From positions 62,001 through 126,000 of the forward strand of contig NZ_VTPU01000007.1 of assembly GCF_008274785.1 (NCBI RefSeq): a stretch of 64,000 bases of DNA, read 5' to 3'. The notes under the pieces are model-generated. The model was not told the DNA's origin, did not search any database, and saw only the letters and a list, made by a program, of their open reading frames with translations. The first letter of the stretch is position 1; each line of letters opens with the position of its first letter. Origin of the DNA: Halomonas eurihalina. Lineage in GTDB: Bacteria > Pseudomonadota > Gammaproteobacteria > Pseudomonadales > Halomonadaceae. Positions 2,989-57,355 of this stretch are shown here, piece after piece. The position numbers and the translations under genes are program-made.

Positions 2989-5190
2989 ATGTCCGATGCC
3001 CATGAACATGGCTGCTGCGGTGGCCATCGCACTGAGCCCCGCGAGGCCGTGGCCGTCCCGGCGGACAGCGAGATGCTGCGCCTGCGCATCCAGGAGATGG
3101 ACTGCCCCACCGAGGAAGCCCTGCTGCGCAAGGCCCTGACCTCGGCGCCCGGCGTCGCTGCTCTGGAATTCGACCTGATGGCCAGGATACTCAGCATCCA
3201 CCATCACGACGCCGACACCGAGGCACTTCAGGCACGCATTCGCGATCTGGGCATGACGCCTCACCCTCTGGACACCGATGGCGCCCCGGACGATGAGCCG
3301 CCGGCAAGCGACGATACGCCCTGGGGGCGGCTGGTACTGGCGGCACTCCTGGCCCTGGCCGCCGAGATCGTCGGTTGGACGCCCTGGCCCTGGACCGACT
3401 GGCTGGCCCCGGCGCTCGCACTGCCGGCCATCGCCCTGGTGGGCTTGCCGACCTGGCGCAAGGGCTGGGTGGCGATCCGCCACCGCACCCTCAACATCAA
3501 CGCCCTGATGAGCGTGGCGGTGACCGGCGCCCTGCTGATCGGCCATTGGTCGGAAGCCGCCATGGTGATGGTGCTGTTCACCCTGGCGGAGCATATCGAG
3601 TCACGCTCCCTGGAACGTGCCCGCCGCGCCATCCGCGACCTGCTCGACAGCGCCCCTCGCCAGGCCCGGCGACGCGCAGCATCCGGAGAGTGGGAAAACG
3701 TCGCCGCCGCGGACGTGGCCATCGGCGATATCGTGCGGGTACTCCCCGGCGAGCGCCTGCCACTGGACGGCGAGGTCGTGCGTGGCCATCCCAGCCTGGA
3801 CGAGTCGCCGATCACCGGCGAAAGCCTCCCCGTCGACAAGGCGCCCGGCGACAGCGTCTTCGCCGGTGCCATCAACCACGACGGCGACTTCGACATCCGC
3901 ACCACCCGGGTAGCCAGCGACACCACCCTGGCCCGTATCATTCATGCCGTCGAGCAGGCGCAGGCCAGCCAGGCGCCCACCCAGCGATTCATCGACCGCT
4001 TCGCCGCCGTCTACACGCCCGTGGTTTTCGCCCTGGCAGTGCTCACGGCCCTGGCCTGGCCCTGGATCGCCGGCGGCGCCTGGCTGGATGGTATCTACCG
4101 CGCCCTGGTGCTGCTGGTGATCGCCTGCCCCTGTGCGTTGGTCATCTCCACGCCAGTCACCATCGTCAGTGGCCTGTCCGCCGCCGCTCGGGCTGGCATC
4201 CTGATCAAGGGTGGCCGCTTTCTGGAACAGGGCCGACGTCTGAGCTGGCTGGCGCTGGACAAGACCGGCACCCTGACCCGGGGCGAGCCGACACTGGAAC
4301 ACTGGGAGCCCCTCGACGAGCCATCGGATGCCAGCAGTCGCGAGGCCCTGGCGCAACAGGCCGCCCTGCTCGCCGGGCGCTCGACGCATCCCGTATCCGC
4401 CGCCATTCATCGAGCCCTCGTCGCACCGGATGCAGATGACGGCAGCGTGGATGATTTCCGCGAACGCCCCGGCCAGGGTGTCGAGGGTCGAGTCGACGGC
4501 CAAGCGCTATGGCTCGGCAACCGCCGGCTGGCCGATGCTCGAGGCCTGCTCGACGCGACGCTTGCCGAGCGCATCGAGGCACTGGAACGTCGCGGCGCCA
4601 GCGTCGTGGCACTGGGCGCCAACGAGCGGGTCCTGGCGCTGTTCGCCGTGCGCGACCCACTCAAGCCCACCAGCCTGGCGGCCATCGAGGCACTGCATGG
4701 CCTGGGCGTGAAGACCCTGATGCTCTCCGGCGACAACCGACACGCGGTGAGTGCCATCGCCACGGAAGCCGGCATCGACAGCGCCCGAGGCGAGCTGCTG
4801 CCCGAGGACAAGCTCGCCATCATCGAGGAACACGGCCATCGCGGGTTGATCGGCATGGTCGGCGACGGTATCAACGATGCACCAGCGCTGGCCCGTGCCG
4901 ATATCGGCTTCTCCATGGGCGCGGCCGGCAGTGACGTGGCCATCGAGACCGCCGATGTGGCGCTGATGGACGATGACCTCGGCAAGTTGCCGACCTTCCT
5001 GCGCCTGTCCCGTGCTACCTACGCCGTGCTGGTCCAGAACATCGTGCTGGCGCTTGGCATCAAGGCGGTCTTCATGGTGCTGGCCTTCACCGGTCAGGCC
5101 ACCCTGTGGATGGCGGTATTCGCCGATCTGGGGGCCAGCCTGCTGGTCATCGGCAATGGATTGCGCCTGCTGCGCAGCCGGCTTGCCTGA
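2989..5190 (+). CDS. cadA: P1B-type heavy-metal ATPase (Cd/Pb/Zn exporter)
   Basis: A 733-residue inner-membrane pump that uses ATP to export Cd2+, Pb2+ or Zn2+. A His/Cys-rich N-terminus (HEHGCCGGH, residues 5-13) precedes a single HMA domain whose site is MDCPTEE (37-43), the CxxEE variant seen in Cd/Pb pumps, instead of CxxC. Further on are the TGES actuator loop, the intramembrane CPC motif (380-382), DKTGT with phosphorylated Asp424, the STHP nucleotide-site motif, and GDGINDAP. I choose the ATG at 2989, preceded by GGAG. A GTG 12 codons upstream lies inside the promoter and is unlikely. Named as the Cd/Zn group; exact metal preference is not readable. Confidence 0.93.
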   Translation: MSDAHEHGCCGGHRTEPREAVAVPADSEMLRLRIQEMDCPTEEALLRKALTSAPGVAALEFDLMARILSIHHHDADTEALQARIRDLGMTPHPLDTDGAPDDEPPASDDTPWGRLVLAALLALAAEIVGWTPWPWTDWLAPALALPAIALVGLPTWRKGWVAIRHRTLNINALMSVAVTGALLIGHWSEAAMVMVLFTLAEHIESRSLERARRAIRDLLDSAPRQARRRAASGEWENVAAADVAIGDIVRVLPGERLPLDGEVVRGHPSLDESPITGESLPVDKAPGDSVFAGAINHDGDFDIRTTRVASDTTLARIIHAVEQAQASQAPTQRFIDRFAAVYTPVVFALAVLTALAWPWIAGGAWLDGIYRALVLLVIACPCALVISTPVTIVSGLSAAARAGILIKGGRFLEQGRRLSWLALDKTGTLTRGEPTLEHWEPLDEPSDASSREALAQQAALLAGRSTHPVSAAIHRALVAPDADDGSVDDFRERPGQGVEGRVDGQALWLGNRRLADARGLLDATLAERIEALERRGASVVALGANERVLALFAVRDPLKPTSLAAIEALHGLGVKTLMLSGDNRHAVSAIATEAGIDSARGELLPEDKLAIIEEHGHRGLIGMVGDGINDAPALARADIGFSMGAAGSDVAIETADVALMDDDLGKLPTFLRLSRATYAVLVQNIVLALGIKAVFMVLAFTGQATLWMAVFADLGASLLVIGNGLRLLRSRLA

Positions 5191-18831: not shown

Positions 18832-18862
18832 TTTCGTTACGCACCACGCCACGAACCGCTAG

Positions 18863-18917
18863 GTCTTGCATGAAAAGTCGACGAGCGAAGGTGATGCAGG
18901 CACTTTTCATACAGACC
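18863..18917. repeat. MITE-like element, family A, internally deleted copy
   Basis: A 55-bp element with near-perfect inverted ends (GTCTTGCATGAAAAGT and ACTTTTCATACAGACC) is bordered on both sides by CTAG (18859-18862 and 18918-18921), as expected for a 4-bp target duplication. It matches the two ends of the longer copies near 30.2 and 57.2 kb but lacks their interior. The right CTAG contains the TAG stop codon of the adjacent TRAP gene. Confidence 0.8.
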
Positions 18918-20924
18918 CTAGCCCGTGGCTAGCGCCTGGCGCCGGCTGGCCAGCCAGTTGCCACCGAGCGCCACGACCATCACCGCCACCCCGATGACCT
19001 CGGCCACCAGACTCGGGTAGAAAACGGCGACGATCGCCGGCAGCAGCACCAGACGCACCGGTACCGACATGCGGGTGAACAGATACCCCTCCAGGGCCGC
19101 GGCAAAAGCCCCCAGGGCCAGGAAGCCGGCCAGCGCCGTCCACACCAGCAACGGCCACGGGCCGCCCATGATGATCTCCGGGTTGTAGACCATGAACAGC
19201 GGGATCAGGTAGAGCCCCTTGGCGAACTTCCAGGCCTGGAAGCCCGTCTCCATCGGCTTGCTGCCCGCTATCGCCGCGCCGGCGAAGCCCGCCAGGGCAA
19301 TGGGCGGCGTGACGTTGGAATCCTGGGAGTACCAGAACACCACCAGGTGGGCGATCAGCAGCGGAACCCCGAACTCGCTGGTCAGCGCCGGCCCCACCAA
19401 CACGATCAGCACGATGTAGCTGGCGGTCACCGGCAGCCCCATGCCCAGCACCAGGCTGGCCAGCAGCACCATCACCAGCGCCAGCAGCAGGTGACCGTTG
19501 GAGAAGGCCATCATCATCGCCGAGAACTTCAAGCCCAGACCGGTGAGCCCCACAACGCCAACGATGATCCCGGCCACGGCACAGGCCATGGACACCGCCA
19601 CGGCATTGCGGGCACCGAGCTCGAGCCCTTCGAGCAGCTTGAGCCCCCCGTTACGCACGGCAAGCTTCAGGGCGCTCGCCGTGACCGGCTGCCCTTGCTT
19701 GGGCGCCACGAAGACCATCCAGATGACAAAGCGCAGGACCACCACCGCCAGCATGGTCAGAATGGCGTAATAACCGACCCGCATCGGCGACAGGTTCTGC
19801 ACCAGCAGCCACACCAGCACCGCCAGCGGCAGCAGGAAGTGCCACCCGGCCCCCATCACGTCGCGCATCTGCGGGAGCTCGTCCTTGCTCATGCCCTTCA
19901 TGCCCTGTTTCAAGGCAATGATATGCACGAACAGATAGACGGTGGAGAAGTACATGACCGCCGGCAGGATGCTGACCTTGACCACCTCCAGATACGGCAT
20001 GCGCGTGTATTCGGCGATCAGGAAAGCCCCGGCCCCCATCAGCGGCGGCATGATCTGCCCACCGGTGGACGCCGCCGCCTCGATGCCACCGGCCTGGTGC
20101 GGCCGATAGCCCAGGCGCTTCATCAGCGGAATGGTGAAGGCGCCGGTGGTCACCACGTTGGCGATGGCACTGCCCGAGATCGAGCCCATGCCAGCCGAGG
20201 CGAGGACCGCCGCCTTGGCCGGGCCGCCGCGCTGCCGACCAGTGGCCGCATAGGCCAGGTCAATGAAGAACTTGCCGGCGCCGGTGATCTCGAGAAAGGC
20301 GCCGAACAACACGAAGATGAAGATGTAGGTGGCCGCCACCCCCATGGGCAGGCCGAAGATGCCTTCCTGCCCCAGATAGAGCTGCCCGACCAGGCGATCC
20401 AGACTGTAACCGCGGTGTTCGAGGATGCCGGGCAGCCACTCGCCGAGCCAGGGCAGCTCGCCACGCGACCCGGCGAAGGCATAGAGAATGGCGAGTACGC
20501 CGATCACCGTCATGCCGAGCCCCACCGCGCGACGGCTCGCCTCGAGCACGGTGATGGTGGCGATGCAGCCGATCACGATGTCGGTCTGGCTCCAGAACCC
20601 GGCGCGATTGATGATCTCGTCAAGATACAGCACCAGGTAGCCCCCGGTGATCACCGCCCCGGCGAAGAACACCAGGTCGATCAGCCCGCCGACCACGCCT
20701 CTGGGCCGGGCGGGGCCGAACACAGGGAACATCAAAAAGGCCAGCATCATGATCAGCGCCAGGTGAATGCTGCGCTGATAGAAGAGCCCCAGGGGCTCGA
20801 TACCGGCGGAGTAGAGCTGGAACAGCGACAGTACCACGGCCACCAGGCTGATCAGCCAGAGCACGGGCCGGGAGTGCTTGGCCTGGCTGCCGGGAATGAT
20901 GGGGGAATTACCCGAATCGCTCAT
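18918..20924 (-). CDS. TRAP transporter fused permease (TAXI type, 4TM/12TM)
   Basis: A 668-residue membrane protein in which the small and large TRAP permease subunits are fused, typical of TAXI-TRAP systems. The N-terminal 200 residues hold the DctQ-like helices; the remainder is the DctM-like domain with MGSISGSAIANVVTTG, GGIEAAASTGGQIMPPLMG and NVTPPIALAGFAGAAIAGS. The transport partner is the TAXI binding protein encoded upstream. The stop codon TAG lies in the border of a MITE-like repeat. The last gene of a three-gene operon with the TAXI receptor and a DUF1850 protein; the 58-base gap before it has no notable signal. Confidence 0.94.
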   Translation of the reverse strand: MSDSGNSPIIPGSQAKHSRPVLWLISLVAVVLSLFQLYSAGIEPLGLFYQRSIHLALIMMLAFLMFPVFGPARPRGVVGGLIDLVFFAGAVITGGYLVLYLDEIINRAGFWSQTDIVIGCIATITVLEASRRAVGLGMTVIGVLAILYAFAGSRGELPWLGEWLPGILEHRGYSLDRLVGQLYLGQEGIFGLPMGVAATYIFIFVLFGAFLEITGAGKFFIDLAYAATGRQRGGPAKAAVLASAGMGSISGSAIANVVTTGAFTIPLMKRLGYRPHQAGGIEAAASTGGQIMPPLMGAGAFLIAEYTRMPYLEVVKVSILPAVMYFSTVYLFVHIIALKQGMKGMSKDELPQMRDVMGAGWHFLLPLAVLVWLLVQNLSPMRVGYYAILTMLAVVVLRFVIWMVFVAPKQGQPVTASALKLAVRNGGLKLLEGLELGARNAVAVSMACAVAGIIVGVVGLTGLGLKFSAMMMAFSNGHLLLALVMVLLASLVLGMGLPVTASYIVLIVLVGPALTSEFGVPLLIAHLVVFWYSQDSNVTPPIALAGFAGAAIAGSKPMETGFQAWKFAKGLYLIPLFMVYNPEIIMGGPWPLLVWTALAGFLALGAFAAALEGYLFTRMSVPVRLVLLPAIVAVFYPSLVAEVIGVAVMVVALGGNWLASRRQALATG

Positions 20925-28473: not shown

Positions 28474-29880
28474 TCAGGAGACACCCTCGGAGGCGACCGA
28501 CCGAGAACGTCGGGCGGGCCGACACCAGGCAATCAACAGACTGACCAGCGTCGAGGCGACCAGGGCGCAGAGAAACGGCGACAAGGTGGGAATGCCACCC
28601 GGGAAGCTGGCCGCCTGCACGCCCTCCATCAGGCTGCCCTGGGCCACCCAGCCCGGCACGACCGCGCCCACCAGACCTGCCGCACCGCCGGCCATCGCCG
28701 CCAGGGAACTCATCCGCCGCCAGACGCCCAGCAATACCGGCACCACGGTGGCCGCGCACAGCAGATCGGCGATCAGAAACAGCCGCAACACGGAGAGCTC
28801 CTGCAGGGCGACCACCACCACCGGGATCATCAGGACCACGGTGACCAGCCGCGCGGTGCCGATGGACAGCCCACGACGCCCGGAGCCCGCCACCACCAGG
28901 GAGGCGATGGCGTTCTGCAGGGTATCCACGCTCGACGCCACCAGGGTGACGGCCAGCACCAGTGCCGGCACGGCCAGCCAACCCGGCGCCTCGGCCAGCA
29001 GCGCGAAGAAGGGAATCGGCGGCTCGCCCAGCGGCAATCCATGCATGGCGGCCAGAATGCCGAGGCCACCGATCACCATGACCACCAGCAGCACGCCAAC
29101 CCCGCCCAGCAGGGCGCCGCGGCCCAGTGCGCCATTCGTCTCGGCGGCCCAGACGCGCTGCCAGTACCCCTGGTGGAACAGTTCCGCCGCCGTGACCGCG
29201 ATGATCAGGGTCAAGGCCACCGAGAGGGCATTCACCGAAGGCGTGGTCGGCATTGCCGCGTTTTCCGGCAAGGGCGGCAGGACCCAGACCACCACGCCGG
29301 CCACCAGCACCAGAAGCGCCAGCAGCAGCCAGCCCTGCCAGCGATCCGTGGCCAGGCTGGCCCGCAGTCCACCCACTGCCGTGTACACCAGGGTGACGAC
29401 CGCCACGCCCATCACCACCAGTCCCGCCGGCACCTCGGACAGCAAGGAAGCAATCGCCCCAATGGCCGTCAGCTCGGCGGCCAGGAAACACGCCATGTAG
29501 AGGATCGAAACGAGCGTGACCCAGCGCCGCACGCCCTGCCCATAGCAGGCCTCGGCGAACTCGCCGATGCTGCGCCCCTCGGGCAGGTACCGACGAATCA
29601 CCGGCCCGTACAGGCTCAGCACGATGAAGGGCAAGGCGGAGCCGAGGGCATAGCCAGCCAGCGCCAACGGTCCCACCATGGCACCGATTTCCGGTGGCGC
29701 AAAGAGAATCCAGGCCCCCATGCCCGATGCCAGGAAGGAAACGCCAAGCGAGCGGGCGCTCTGGGAGTTGCGAGCGGTCACATAGTCGTCGAGGGGGCCA
29801 TCGGCCCGGCGGGCCCGCAGGCCCAGATAGGCAAAACACAGCAGCGCCGCGCCGAGCACGGCTGACGTCAAGTAAGGCAT
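28474..29880 (-). CDS. Sodium:solute symporter under TPP riboswitch control, predicted thiamine or thiamine-precursor transporter
   Basis: A 468-residue SSS-family transporter with about thirteen helices. Typical pieces are the DDYVTARNSQSARSLGVSFLASGMGAW N-terminal stretch (residues about 31-57) and VTLVASSVDTLQNAIAS in the core. A TPP riboswitch lies directly upstream, with the gene's ribosome site inside its 3' end. Riboswitch control is the main clue that it imports thiamine, or its pyrimidine moiety. It resembles the predicted ThiV type described from comparative genomics, but orthology is not proven. No thi biosynthesis genes are in the window. Confidence 0.85.
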   Translation of the reverse strand: MPYLTSAVLGAALLCFAYLGLRARRADGPLDDYVTARNSQSARSLGVSFLASGMGAWILFAPPEIGAMVGPLALAGYALGSALPFIVLSLYGPVIRRYLPEGRSIGEFAEACYGQGVRRWVTLVSILYMACFLAAELTAIGAIASLLSEVPAGLVVMGVAVVTLVYTAVGGLRASLATDRWQGWLLLALLVLVAGVVVWVLPPLPENAAMPTTPSVNALSVALTLIIAVTAAELFHQGYWQRVWAAETNGALGRGALLGGVGVLLVVMVIGGLGILAAMHGLPLGEPPIPFFALLAEAPGWLAVPALVLAVTLVASSVDTLQNAIASLVVAGSGRRGLSIGTARLVTVVLMIPVVVVALQELSVLRLFLIADLLCAATVVPVLLGVWRRMSSLAAMAGGAAGLVGAVVPGWVAQGSLMEGVQAASFPGGIPTLSPFLCALVASTLVSLLIAWCRPARRSRSVASEGVS

Positions 29881-29888
29881 GTCGCACT

Positions 29889-29975
29889 TCCTCCGCCGGC
29901 GTGAACCGGATCAGGTTCCAGGGTCAGCGTCACGCGCTTTCTCAGCCCCGTCGGTACGAGACTCCCCTGGCGACA
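29889..29975 (-). ncRNA. TPP riboswitch (THI element)
   Basis: On the minus strand the conserved THI-box elements are present in order: GGGGAGTC near 29968, GGGGCTGAGA (29949-29940), then ACCTGATCCGGTT ending near 29903, then the GCCGGCGGAGGAAG tail. These match the pyrimidine-sensing and pyrophosphate-sensing helices of TPP riboswitches. The tail includes the GGAGG ribosome site of the symporter gene, whose ATG follows nine bases later, so translational control is likely. The stretch from 29976 to 30136 upstream has no gene and should hold the promoter. Confidence 0.94.
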
Positions 29976-30140
29976 GTGAATGAATTTTGGGGCACAGGGC
30001 ACGAAAATCGCCGTGTGCATGACGGCCCGAAAGGGCCGCCCGACAGCATGCCACACTCGTCGCCGGAAGACGAATGCCCCGGGACGCTTGGAGGTCTTCC
30101 TGGAAGTCGTCGAGCGCAGACGCTTTATGATAATACCCAG

Positions 30141-30281
30141 GTCTTGTACGAAAAGTCGGCGAGCGATGGGGTAGACAAGGCAAAAATCAGCGAAAGGACG
30201 GAGTTTACAGACGAGTAAATGAGTACTTTGAGCTGATTTTTAACGCCGTATAACCGAGCGCAGGCACTTTTCGTACAGACC
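30141..30281. repeat. MITE-like element, family A, full-length copy
   Basis: A 141-bp element with inverted ends GTCTTGTACGAAAAGT and ACTTTTCGTACAGACC. Its sequence aligns over its whole length with the copy at 57186-57324, including an interior TACGGCGTTAAAAATC and AGTACTCATTTAC on the minus strand. Its borders are CCAG on the left and CTAA on the right; the latter contains the reversed TAG stop codon of the deaminase gene. No protein is encoded. Confidence 0.85.
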
Positions 30282-31493
30282 CTAAAATGCCGTCTCGAGC
30301 ATCTCGGTCACCCTCAGCCGCTCATCGACCAGGCAGATCCGCCGCCACTTGTCGAAGGTCAGGCAAGGATGGGAAGCGCCGAAGGCCACCACATCGCCGA
30401 CCCGCACATCATCGGCGCCCTCGGGCAAGCGGATGAAGGCATGCTGGTCCATCAGCTTGGTGAGCTCCCAGCCCGCCACGCTCAATACCTCGTCCGCCGA
30501 GCCACCCTCGCGATAGCGGCGCAGTAGCTCGGGCAAGTGATCGAAGCCGATGTCGCGCTTGCCGATCGCCACGATCGTCAGTCCCGGCTCGGGCAACGAC
30601 TGCACCTGGGCGAAGACCTCAAGTGCTGGCCGCAGCCCTTCGTGCAGATCGGGACGCCGCGACAGCACGCCGCGCTGGGCCTGGCGGTAGATGCCGTGAT
30701 CGTGCACCACATAACAGCCCGGGCGAATCACCGGCGTAAAGCGTGAACGCAGCTCAGCGACATCGAAGGTCTCGGCGATCAGGTCATACCAGGCCGACCC
30801 CGAGGCGGTGATGATCGGGGCATCCACAGTGAACCGGCCCTCGTCATCCAGGCGACGGGCGGCCTCGACCAGCCGTGCGGCGTATTCGCGAATCGCCGGC
30901 ACCGGGTCCTCGGCATGCACCACCCCCTCGTAGCCTTCCATGCCAGCCAGCGCCAGGCCCGGCTCGGCATCGACGATCCGCGCCAGCTCGCTCACTGCCT
31001 CGACGGAACGGCAACCGGTGCGCCCGCCCTCGACGCCCAGTTCGATCAGCACCTTGAGGGTCAGGCCGCGTTCGGAGAAGAAGCGCCCCAGGGCCCGCGC
31101 ATTGTCCTCGCCATCGACCACGCAGTGGTAATCGGCGCCGGCTTCGAGCAGATCGGCAATGATCGCCATGTTGGCACGCCCCACCAGTTGGTTGGCCATC
31201 AACAACCGCTCGACCCCGCTGACGAAGGCCGCGCGGCACTGCGGCGCGGTGGCCAGAGTGATACCCCAGGCGCCGGCCTCGAGCTGACGGCGAAACAGTT
31301 CGGGCGTCATGGTGGTCTTGCCGTGCGGCGCCAGCTCTGCGCCATGCGACTCGGCGAAACGCTGCATCCACGCCAGGTTGTGCGCCAACGGCGCCGCCTG
31401 TATAGCGGCTGCCGGCAGGCTCACGCCCTCCAGCAGCGAAGCCCCGGATTCCGGGGTCCCCTTGTTGCCCATCTTCGGCGCCGTCTCGTGCAT
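30282..31493 (-). CDS. PLP-dependent D-amino acid deaminase (D-serine dehydratase / D-threonine aldolase family, DSD1-like)
   Basis: A 403-residue fold-type III PLP enzyme. Residues about 28-260 form the alanine-racemase-like barrel with the PLP Lys59 in APHGKTTMTPELF. The C-terminal domain ends with FGASHPCLTFDKW, whose His and Cys are the Zn ligands typical of DSD1-type D-serine dehydratases. It should dehydrate or deaminate D-serine or D-threonine-like substrates in the cytoplasm. It is divergent from an RpiR regulator and a D-aminoacylase/RidA operon, which supports D-amino acid catabolism. The start at 31493 has a GAGGAG site. Its TAG stop is part of a MITE border. Confidence 0.86.
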   Translation of the reverse strand: MHETAPKMGNKGTPESGASLLEGVSLPAAAIQAAPLAHNLAWMQRFAESHGAELAPHGKTTMTPELFRRQLEAGAWGITLATAPQCRAAFVSGVERLLMANQLVGRANMAIIADLLEAGADYHCVVDGEDNARALGRFFSERGLTLKVLIELGVEGGRTGCRSVEAVSELARIVDAEPGLALAGMEGYEGVVHAEDPVPAIREYAARLVEAARRLDDEGRFTVDAPIITASGSAWYDLIAETFDVAELRSRFTPVIRPGCYVVHDHGIYRQAQRGVLSRRPDLHEGLRPALEVFAQVQSLPEPGLTIVAIGKRDIGFDHLPELLRRYREGGSADEVLSVAGWELTKLMDQHAFIRLPEGADDVRVGDVVAFGASHPCLTFDKWRRICLVDERLRVTEMLETAF

Positions 31494-56481: not shown

Positions 56482-56868
56482 ATGGACAATGAAAAGATTC
56501 TCGACGCCTTCACGGCACTTTCCCAGGCGACCCGCCTGGAGACCTTCCGCGTATTGGTACGATTCGAACCGGAAGGCCTCCCGGCCGGCGAGATCGCCCG
56601 ACTGCTGGGCGTGCCGCACAACACCATGTCGACGCATCTGGGCGTGCTGTCGCGGGCAGGACTGGTGAGCTCGCGTCGGCAGAGCCGCTCGATCATCTAT
56701 CGAGCCAACCTGGATCACATGCGGGAGACGCTCAGCTTCCTGGTGCACGACTGCTGCGCCGGACGCGCCGAATTGTGCGAACCGCTCCTGCGGGAATTGC
56801 AACACCCCGCCGCCGACTGCAACCGAGAGGCTGGCGAGAACCTGTGCAACGGTGAGGACGTCTCATGA
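56482..56868 (+). CDS. arsR: ArsR-family arsenic-responsive repressor
   Basis: A 128-residue winged-helix repressor. The DNA-binding part is LGVPHNTMSTHLGVLSRAGL (about 42-61). Unlike E. coli ArsR it lacks the ELCVCDL site in the DNA-binding helix; instead a C-terminal cluster Cys91, Cys92 and Cys99 (HDCCAGRAELC) is present, resembling the C-terminal As(III) site of the Acidithiobacillus ArsR type. It is the first gene of the ars operon, overlapping the arsH remnant by four bases (ATGA). The extra Cys at 114 and 122 may not be ligands. Confidence 0.9.
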   Translation: MDNEKILDAFTALSQATRLETFRVLVRFEPEGLPAGEIARLLGVPHNTMSTHLGVLSRAGLVSSRRQSRSIIYRANLDHMRETLSFLVHDCCAGRAELCEPLLRELQHPAADCNREAGENLCNGEDVS

Positions 56869-57185
56869 GGCTGGATCAATTACCCAACATCGACCCCGAG
56901 TACTTGCATCCCATCGACATCGATGCCCTGGTCGGCCCGGACCAGCCTCGTCATCCCCCGCACCTCCTGGTGCTCCATCCCCAGCCCAAGGCCTTCAACG
57001 AGTTCGACGAGGCCGGTCGCATGCATCTTTCGCCTCTCTACTACCGGGTCGTCGATGTCTGCGAGGAACTGGTGAAATTTACCTGGATGACGCGCGGGCG
57101 CGCCGCCTACCTGACCGACCGCTACTCGGAACGGGTCGAGAGTGCCGAGGCCGTGTCCCGACGCGTCAATCAGGCCACGCACTAG
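56865..57185 (+). pseudogene. arsH: arsH with large in-frame internal deletion
   Basis: A 106-residue open frame whose two halves both match ArsH: the N-terminus LPNIDPEYLH to HPPHLLVL, and the C-terminus AFNEFDEAGRMHLSP to TDRYSERVESAEAVSRRVN. Full ArsH proteins have about 230-240 residues, so roughly 130 central residues are missing, including the flavodoxin-like core that binds FMN. The junction lies near 56975-56990 and keeps the frame. It should therefore lack the NADPH:FMN oxidoreductase and organoarsenical activity. It keeps its ATGA coupling to arsR. Its TAG stop sits at the border of a MITE-like element. Confidence 0.85.
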
Positions 57186-57324
57186 GTTCTGTACGAAAAC
57201 TGTCTGCACTCGCCCATACGGCGTTAAAAATCGGCTCAAAGTACTCATTTACACCACGTAAACTCCGTCTTTTCACCGATTCTTGCCTTGTCTGGCCATC
57301 GCTCGCCGACTTTTCGCACAAAAC
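57186..57324. repeat. MITE-like element, family A, full-length copy
   Basis: A 139-bp element with inverted ends GTTCTGTACGAAAA and TTTTCGCACAAAAC, flanked by CTAG (57182-57185) and CTAA (57325-57328). It aligns over its full length with the minus strand of the copy at 30141-30281, sharing ACGGCGTTAAAAATC, CTCAAAGTACTCATTTAC, GTAAACTCCGTC and TTGCCTTGTCT. The left border CTAG provides the TAG stop of the arsH remnant. It separates that gene from arsB, whose ribosome site lies just after it. Confidence 0.85.
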
Positions 57325-57355
57325 CTAAGCCAAACCACCGGGAAAGGAGTCCTTC

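Follow-up and report, generated by a model that had tools for sequence, protein, structure and literature searches.

An IS5-type MITE Family of Halomonas Uses CTAG Stop Codons as Safe Sites and Carries a Strand-polar Hairpin Core

Introduction

REP/BIME palindromes lie near the 3′ ends of genes, and the YPAL and ERIC sequences of enterobacteria are small palindromic mobile repeats that likewise occur near gene ends. The attC sites of integrons combine variable covarying stems, conserved unpaired features and one folded strand, with RYYYAAC and GTTRRRY boxes flanking the hairpin. For the R0 and R2 repeats of Pseudomonas fluorescens, which are MITE-like intergenic inverted repeats, Silby 2009 gives a tail-repeat-tail bias, interpreted there as the least-worst location for terminator-like hairpins (PMC2718517).

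The element described here resembles several of these systems in part. In common with IS5-family MITEs it is short, has imperfect inverted ends common with a 912-bp IS5, duplicates CTAG/YTAR, occurs in many copies and has element-free alleles, but it differs from them in its strong orientation at stops and in a strand-polar core that is also found under other ends and in other phyla. Its likeness to REP/BIME, as these are presented in PMC3733652, is that of high-copy intergenic hairpins, whereas the present element has transposon ends and a target duplication. For R0/R2, the text describes gene arrangement (PMC2718517), whereas exact stop adjacency, element orientation and hairpin strand polarity are seen here. 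YPAL and ERIC are alike by description, as small palindromic repeats near gene ends, and the present element is without a match in 5,426 Escherichia coli genomes at blastn sensitivity. The attC sites offer a possible working likeness, with covarying variable stems, conserved unpaired features and one folded strand; unlike them, the present core lies inside IS5-type ends in this genus, and the two attC boxes were not seen by eye in a 39-core consensus or in part of the flanks. A literature search by title and abstract opening, with partial coverage, found no paper on the present core or on oriented siting at stops. The analysis below leads us to conclude that the copies form an IS5-type MITE family for which CTAG stops serve as safe sites, and that a polar hairpin core is part of the element.

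Results

Three copies in the window

The window is the whole stretch of DNA that was analyzed, 64,000 nucleotides of a Halomonas eurihalina contig. An earlier note on this DNA had placed three copies of the element directly behind TAG stops, with the same end toward the gene each time. On re-reading, all three were found at the positions it gave and with the borders it gave (CTAG/CTAG, CCAG/CTAA and CTAG/CTAA for copies 1, 2 and 3), and one end, here termed A, abuts the TAG stop in every case, the opposite end being termed B.

18863..18917, minus strand: copy 1, 55 bp, a core-less internal-deletion derivative; ends A = 18917, B = 18863
18918-20924, minus strand: gene abutted by copy 1, DctM-type TRAP transporter; TAG stop 18918-18920
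18918..18921, no strand: A-end border CTAG of copy 1, holding the TAG stop; partner CTAG 18859-18862
30141..30281, minus strand: copy 2, full 141 bp with core; ends A = 30281, B = 30141; borders CCAG/CTAA
30282-31493, minus strand: gene abutted by copy 2, Ala_racemase_N and D-ser_dehydrat domains; TAG stop 30282-30284
30111..30136 (approximate limits), minus strand: degenerate A-end-like remnant past the B end of copy 2
57186..57324, plus strand: copy 3, full 139 bp with core; A end = 57186; borders CTAG 57182-57185 and CTAA 57325-57328
56865-57185, plus strand: frame abutted by copy 3, 106 codons; TAG stop 57183-57185

A search for the end motif with at most three mismatches gave seven matches in the window, compared with 0.31 expected from shuffles, and six of the seven are ends of the three copies. 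The genes abutted by the copies are each supported by a codon-usage caller, not by annotation. The 106-codon frame before copy 3, immediately preceded by an HTH_20-domain gene (56482-56868), had been taken for an arsH remnant, an identity that Pfam did not confirm, as the frame has no match at 0.001. An Rfam scan of the whole window returned a TPP riboswitch as the sole match (29870-29978, minus strand; 59.2 bits, gathering 54.3), ∼160 bases from copy 2, and none on the element.

Copy number and sampling

In the own genome, one BLAST search found 43 matches and a second found 51. A profile search of the fetched own-genome stretches gave 52 hits at 48 places, 35 of which hold a piece of at least 25 bits; among these 52 hits the A end is kept in 36 (21 at a stop) and the B end in 31 (1 at a stop). 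Genus-wide, matches were found in 53 of the 61 genomes searched, own included. Eighty congener loci from 36 genomes were fetched by taking the listed matches in order of E-value as far as 7.5e-30, with no more than four from any genome and two at contig edges skipped; the genus has further matches beyond these 80. The loci contain 82 copies, in which 34 of the 80 A ends and 10 of the 78 B ends are at a stop. The 92 distinct full-length sites used below, from the own genome and the 36 congeners, are what is left of 99 sites after seven pairs of similar sites were merged, and the genes here and below were called with a codon-usage caller, or as longest open reading frames where the GC content is ≤55%, rather than taken from annotation.

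Two relatives of the element (L181 and L182) are located on plasmids of Pseudomonas amygdali and P. tremae, with transposase genes nearby; both have 73% identity, in alignments that cover 97% and 87% of the query. Two own-genome copies carry an insert of the GACATCC...GTCACTCGCTCTTCGAGC type after the core (L034, ∼4600-4871, contig C11; L068, 4910-5176, contig C1), which is absent from the other copies examined and is followed in L068 by a B end. Elsewhere in the own genome, short tandem repeats adjoin element remnants, with gtagccc units in L048 after 4711 and ccctgagccatag units in L035 after 4760.

Four short copies are core-less: copy 1 of the window, L044 4926-4979, L047 ∼4767-4815 and L062 6546-6603. 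Two of them share a junction at a short CGCTCG repeat and the others differ, so the deletions look recurrent. In all four the A end faces a TAG stop, and the core is thus unnecessary for holding that position.

IS5-type ends and element-free alleles

Members of the family are ∼140 bp long, have inverted ends of the IS5 type and sit at CTAG/YTAR, a tetranucleotide that is duplicated on insertion. At 44 sites away from stops, the borders are of YTAR type, with C, T, A and G present at 32, 39, 38 and 38 sites, respectively, on the left and at 39, 37, 34 and 31 on the right. Twelve complete IS5 elements, 912–913 bp long, were found in the 30 congener loci examined; their ends are of the GTTYTGTNYGAAAAGT type, and 23 of the 24 are bordered by YTAR. 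These elements, which supply a parent type with matching ends, such as the earlier note had asked to be sought, and bear out its reading of the copies as a MITE with IS5-type ends and YTAR borders, belong to the IS5 family (NCBIfam IS5_3, NF033580), with a DUF4096 transposase in the first frame of L332, the one tested. We infer that the family may be moved, or may formerly have been moved, in trans by IS5-family transposases. The own genome gave only two weak IS5_3 matches, on contig C33 and below cut-off. In L337, a complete IS5 (1093-2004) lies directly against a MITE copy (984-1093), apparently inserted at its CTAG border. Transposases of the PF05598 type were rejected as a parent, since 30 loci gave no match to the element profile and only three isolated 12-base near-matches.

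Element-free alleles were sought with joined-flank queries for six sites against 90 genus genomes, own included, and junction-spanning matches were read. At site L057c, three relatives (L353, L386, and L388) carry a single intact CTAG at the same stop and a fourth has TGA; at site L054, one element-free relative (L385) has a single intact CTAG at the same stop. Precise insertion is thereby shown at two of the six queried sites, and the clean alleles there are of the kind whose absence the earlier note had named as grounds for abandoning its reading. For copy 3 of the window, 11 element-free congener alleles were read, in which the same codon is TAA in one and TGA in ten, indicating that the position of the stop is old and its TAG is not; the ancestral target was probably CTAA, since the B-side border CTAA matches the TAA allele. 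Site L055 has element-free relatives with TAA (one) and TGA (one). At the place of copy 2, two relatives have no full element but a short remnant of the A end, and copy 1 gave no junction-spanning match among the 90 genus genomes queried.

Siting and orientation at stop codons

Over the 92 distinct sites, the A end is at a stop in 43, the B end in 9 and both ends in 4, leaving 39 sites with only A and 5 with only B at a stop (p = 1.4e-7); A thus meets a stop about five times as often as B does. The repeated orientation noticed in the window is therefore real, and the copies of the genome and genus are not random relative to stops or orientation, randomness having been the other outcome that would have counted against the earlier reading. 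At these A-end stops TAG is not absolute, the 43 being TAG in 39, TGA in 2 and TAA in 2.

Among ends that face a gene 3′ end, A is at the stop in 43 of 66 and B in 9 of 48 (p = 1.2e-6). Of the 35 sites between tail-to-tail gene pairs, where a stop is present on both sides, 22 have the A end at a stop and 7 the B end. Between tandem genes, 31 sites have the A-facing order and 14 the other order (p = 0.016), with A at the stop in 21 of the 31 and B in 2 of the 14. At the 44 non-stop sites the target flanks are without clear asymmetry by eye. Given the 39 to 5 split, the palindromic target does not account for the preferred direction.

The tetranucleotide CTAG is indeed rare, as had been supposed: in 468 kb it was seen 208 times, compared with 1561 expected from base composition and 478 from trinucleotides. 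Of the free non-coding CTAGs, 26 of 97 in the own genome and 16 of 72 in congeners are TAG stops (42 of 169, 25%), and stop codons thus make up a large share of the harmless landing sites. Random orientation predicts stop contact at ∼12% per end, a prediction that the B end meets (9 of 92, p = 0.53) and the A end exceeds (43 of 92, p = 7e-16). With B at the expected rate and A above it, siting is partly a matter of availability and orientation is a separate effect. The proposal that CTAG surviving at TAG stops causes the siting therefore accounts for the 25% refuge and the B-end rate, but leaves the A-end excess over.

Spread and structure of the hairpin core

In a sample of the class, 32 of 274 genomes match the element, own included, and the distant matches, among those listed, mostly cover the centre alone (query ∼39-115). 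A 28-base core pattern, which fixes 22 bases and one two-way position and so makes them invariant by construction, was found in 30 of the 369 class genomes searched, the own genome being one of them, and the listed results contain none for the reversed control. In named genomes it occurs in at least 118 stretches, many of the Bacteroidota ones being MAGs; organism names are available for 80 of these loci. The hosts among the matches listed include Pseudomonas, Halomonas, Salinicola, Nitrosomonadales, Desulfobacterales, Alistipes, Rikenellaceae, and other Bacteroidota. One class member with a genome of ∼3.5 Mb (G233) has 65 exact core matches, 28 forward and 37 reverse. The ends around the core differ from group to group. 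Two places in the own genome (L043 14458-14574 and L046 5290-5389) have an inside that matches the profile and ends of the GAGGGTGTTTACAAA type, from which the inside seems common to different transposon ends.

The proteobacterial consensus, read on the B-to-A strand, is CAAGGC - stem III - GA - AAAA - GCGGAG - TTTAC N5 GTAAA - TGAGCA - TTTT - GA - stem III′ - AACGC. Merging of identical cores left 113 of 117. For the alignment, 49 cores were kept with at least 5 of 10 stem III pairs and with none >85% identical to an earlier one; 39 of the 49 aligned (the unaligned ten are L199, L201, L214, L226, L229, L231, L241, L243, L269, and L290). In these 39 cores, preselected for at least half-paired stem III, stems II and III covary, with double changes in 13 of the 14 variable-helix pairs and 134 double-change cells, compared with 38.4 in shuffles. 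Pairing in the variable helix is 91.6% in register and at most 48.7% when slid. The search pattern leaves the 2×2 loop free; in 106 of 147 cases the loop reads TC/TC on the A-to-B strand, equivalent to tandem G·A on the other strand.

In the 12 Bacteroidota loci checked, the TC/TC loop is present in 10 and at least three of four stem II pairs form in all, stem III is short (2 to 5 of 10 positions paired), and the outer stem is different. With stem III poorly paired there, nearly all the cores that entered the covariation and strand tests are of the Pseudomonadota type. A further locus, set apart from the 12, is a MAG labelled Pedobacter (L211) that has the proteobacterial core form and may be mis-binned. 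A known Rfam RNA family was ruled out by the window scan and by seven core loci, which at E ≤ 0.1 gave only one sub-threshold mir-154 match, away from the core. These observations suggest a structured element of unrecognized kind, common to different transposon ends.

The constrained strand

Where the A end abuts a stop, the A-to-B strand is the one present in the mRNA of that gene, and the B-to-A strand is antisense to it. In stems passing a pairing filter (at least 7 of 10 stem III pairs and at least 3 of 4 stem II pairs), mismatches on the A-to-B strand are A·C rather than G·T by 60:6 in 78 genus copies and by 45:12 in 102 copies outside the genus; counting each kind once per cluster, the ratios are 28:6 and 37:11, respectively. 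Since A·C on one strand corresponds to G·T or G·U on the other, it is the B-to-A strand that is constrained. Outside the genus the excess emerges after poorly paired or misregistered stems are dropped, a slightly different count without the pairing filter giving 61 G·T and 78 A·C (p = 0.17). Some of the A·C excess could also be imitated by mutation that acts unequally on the two strands.

Folding energies showed the same polarity. The raw energy favoured the B-to-A strand in 91 of 92 and 144 of 147 cases, partly through base composition, and the composition-corrected z was lower on that strand in 67 of 92 (p = 6e-9) and 104 of 147 (p = 2e-8). The mRNA strand also folds well, with a mean z of −4.3 over the 92 elements. 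In the window, z is −6.2 on the B-to-A strand and −2.9 on the mRNA strand for copy 3, differs little for copy 2 (−7.0 and −6.2), and is reversed for the core-less copy 1 (−1.0 and −2.4). With the filters applied here, pairing is protected on the B-to-A strand, which makes the element a hairpin with strand polarity.

Stop adjacency outside the genus

Of 121 core sites kept outside the genus, 118 were used, the other 3 lying inside a called gene. A stop lies within 80 nucleotides of the core centre in the sense orientation at 50 sites and in the antisense orientation at 22 (p = 0.0013), from 69 cores facing a gene 3′ end in each orientation. The bias is weaker at a limit of 120 nucleotides (60 versus 44, p = 0.14). 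No overall orientation bias of the flanking genes was found (25 versus 22 tandem); only stop adjacency is biased.

Discussion

Selection against the tight strand in transcripts is the explanation that we favour for the orientation, and as a whole we give it an even chance of being correct. The element would land at CTAG/YTAR, moved in trans by IS5-family transposases. Copies whose tightly folding strand came to lie in a 3′ untranslated region would then be lost to selection; in that place the strand might act as a block, a processing site or a polar terminator. Copies putting the looser complement into the transcript would be spared, and the B-to-A strand would be kept for the element's own spread, either as single-stranded DNA or as RNA. 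Counting against this account, the element-free alleles at two of the six queried sites (copy 3 of the window and L055) end in TAA or TGA, not TAG. Also against it are the good folding of the mRNA strand, the near balance of the unfiltered mismatch count outside the genus, the possible share of strand-asymmetric mutation in the A·C excess, and the four core-less copies that face stops with A.

A serious rival, which we nonetheless consider rather unlikely, is oriented insertion, in which the bias would be set on entry just behind stops, either by the transposition complex or by a hairpin that is extruded from a single strand, and not by selection. By a crude measure of age, the A-facing stop copies look as recent as the rest (median best identity 95.9 and 95.6, p = 0.63), and as they are no older in appearance, oriented insertion fits equally well; moreover, the bias toward stops recurs outside the genus with other ends and other stop codons. 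It is less readily reconciled with a palindromic target, with flanks that look symmetric at the 44 non-stop sites, and with the complete parent-type IS5 elements, which have an end at a stop in just 2 of 12 cases, compared with 48 of 92 MITEs (p = 0.03).

The earlier note had raised a mobile 3′-end hairpin that stabilizes or terminates mRNA. A beneficial role of this kind would suit an element directly behind stops whose mRNA strand is able to fold, but it is improbable, as the protected pairing and, after composition control, the better folding belong to the strand opposite to the one in the mRNA of the abutted gene, and congeners at the sites read do without the element at the same stops. 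Availability alone, with insertion at rare CTAGs that happen to be stops and indifferent orientation, is very improbable: it fits the quarter of free non-coding CTAGs that are stops and the B-end rate, but fails at the A end and at the 39:5 split, and remains a component of the siting. Least credible of all is that the element lands inside genes and creates the stop through its border TAG, for although the element-free congeners read at copy 3 and L055 lack TAG, their frames stop at that very codon with TAA or TGA, and at L054 and L057c TAG is already present; at four sites, then, the end of the frame does not depend on the element, and truncation would show no preference for end A.

The core itself, ∼70 nucleotides long and spread over at least two phyla and several types of transposon end, may be a structured nucleic acid of unrecognized kind, either single-stranded DNA or RNA, that is mobile and strand-specific and whose folded strand is excluded from transcripts of the gene it sits behind, a reading that we hold tentatively, at a little under an even chance. 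The function of the hairpin core is probably old.

What had been a loose impression of repeats close to the ends of genes becomes, with the present data, a sharp pattern that can be counted, namely exact placement at stops with a preferred orientation, and the CTAG control lets orientation be separated from the availability of sites. The role of the core, and whether it acts as DNA or as RNA, are open to direct testing. Different ends enclose a polar core whose stems covary and whose loops hold tandem G·A, and its inner part is common to Pseudomonadota and Bacteroidota, which suggests that many intergenic repeats filed as distinct families may have one functional part in common.
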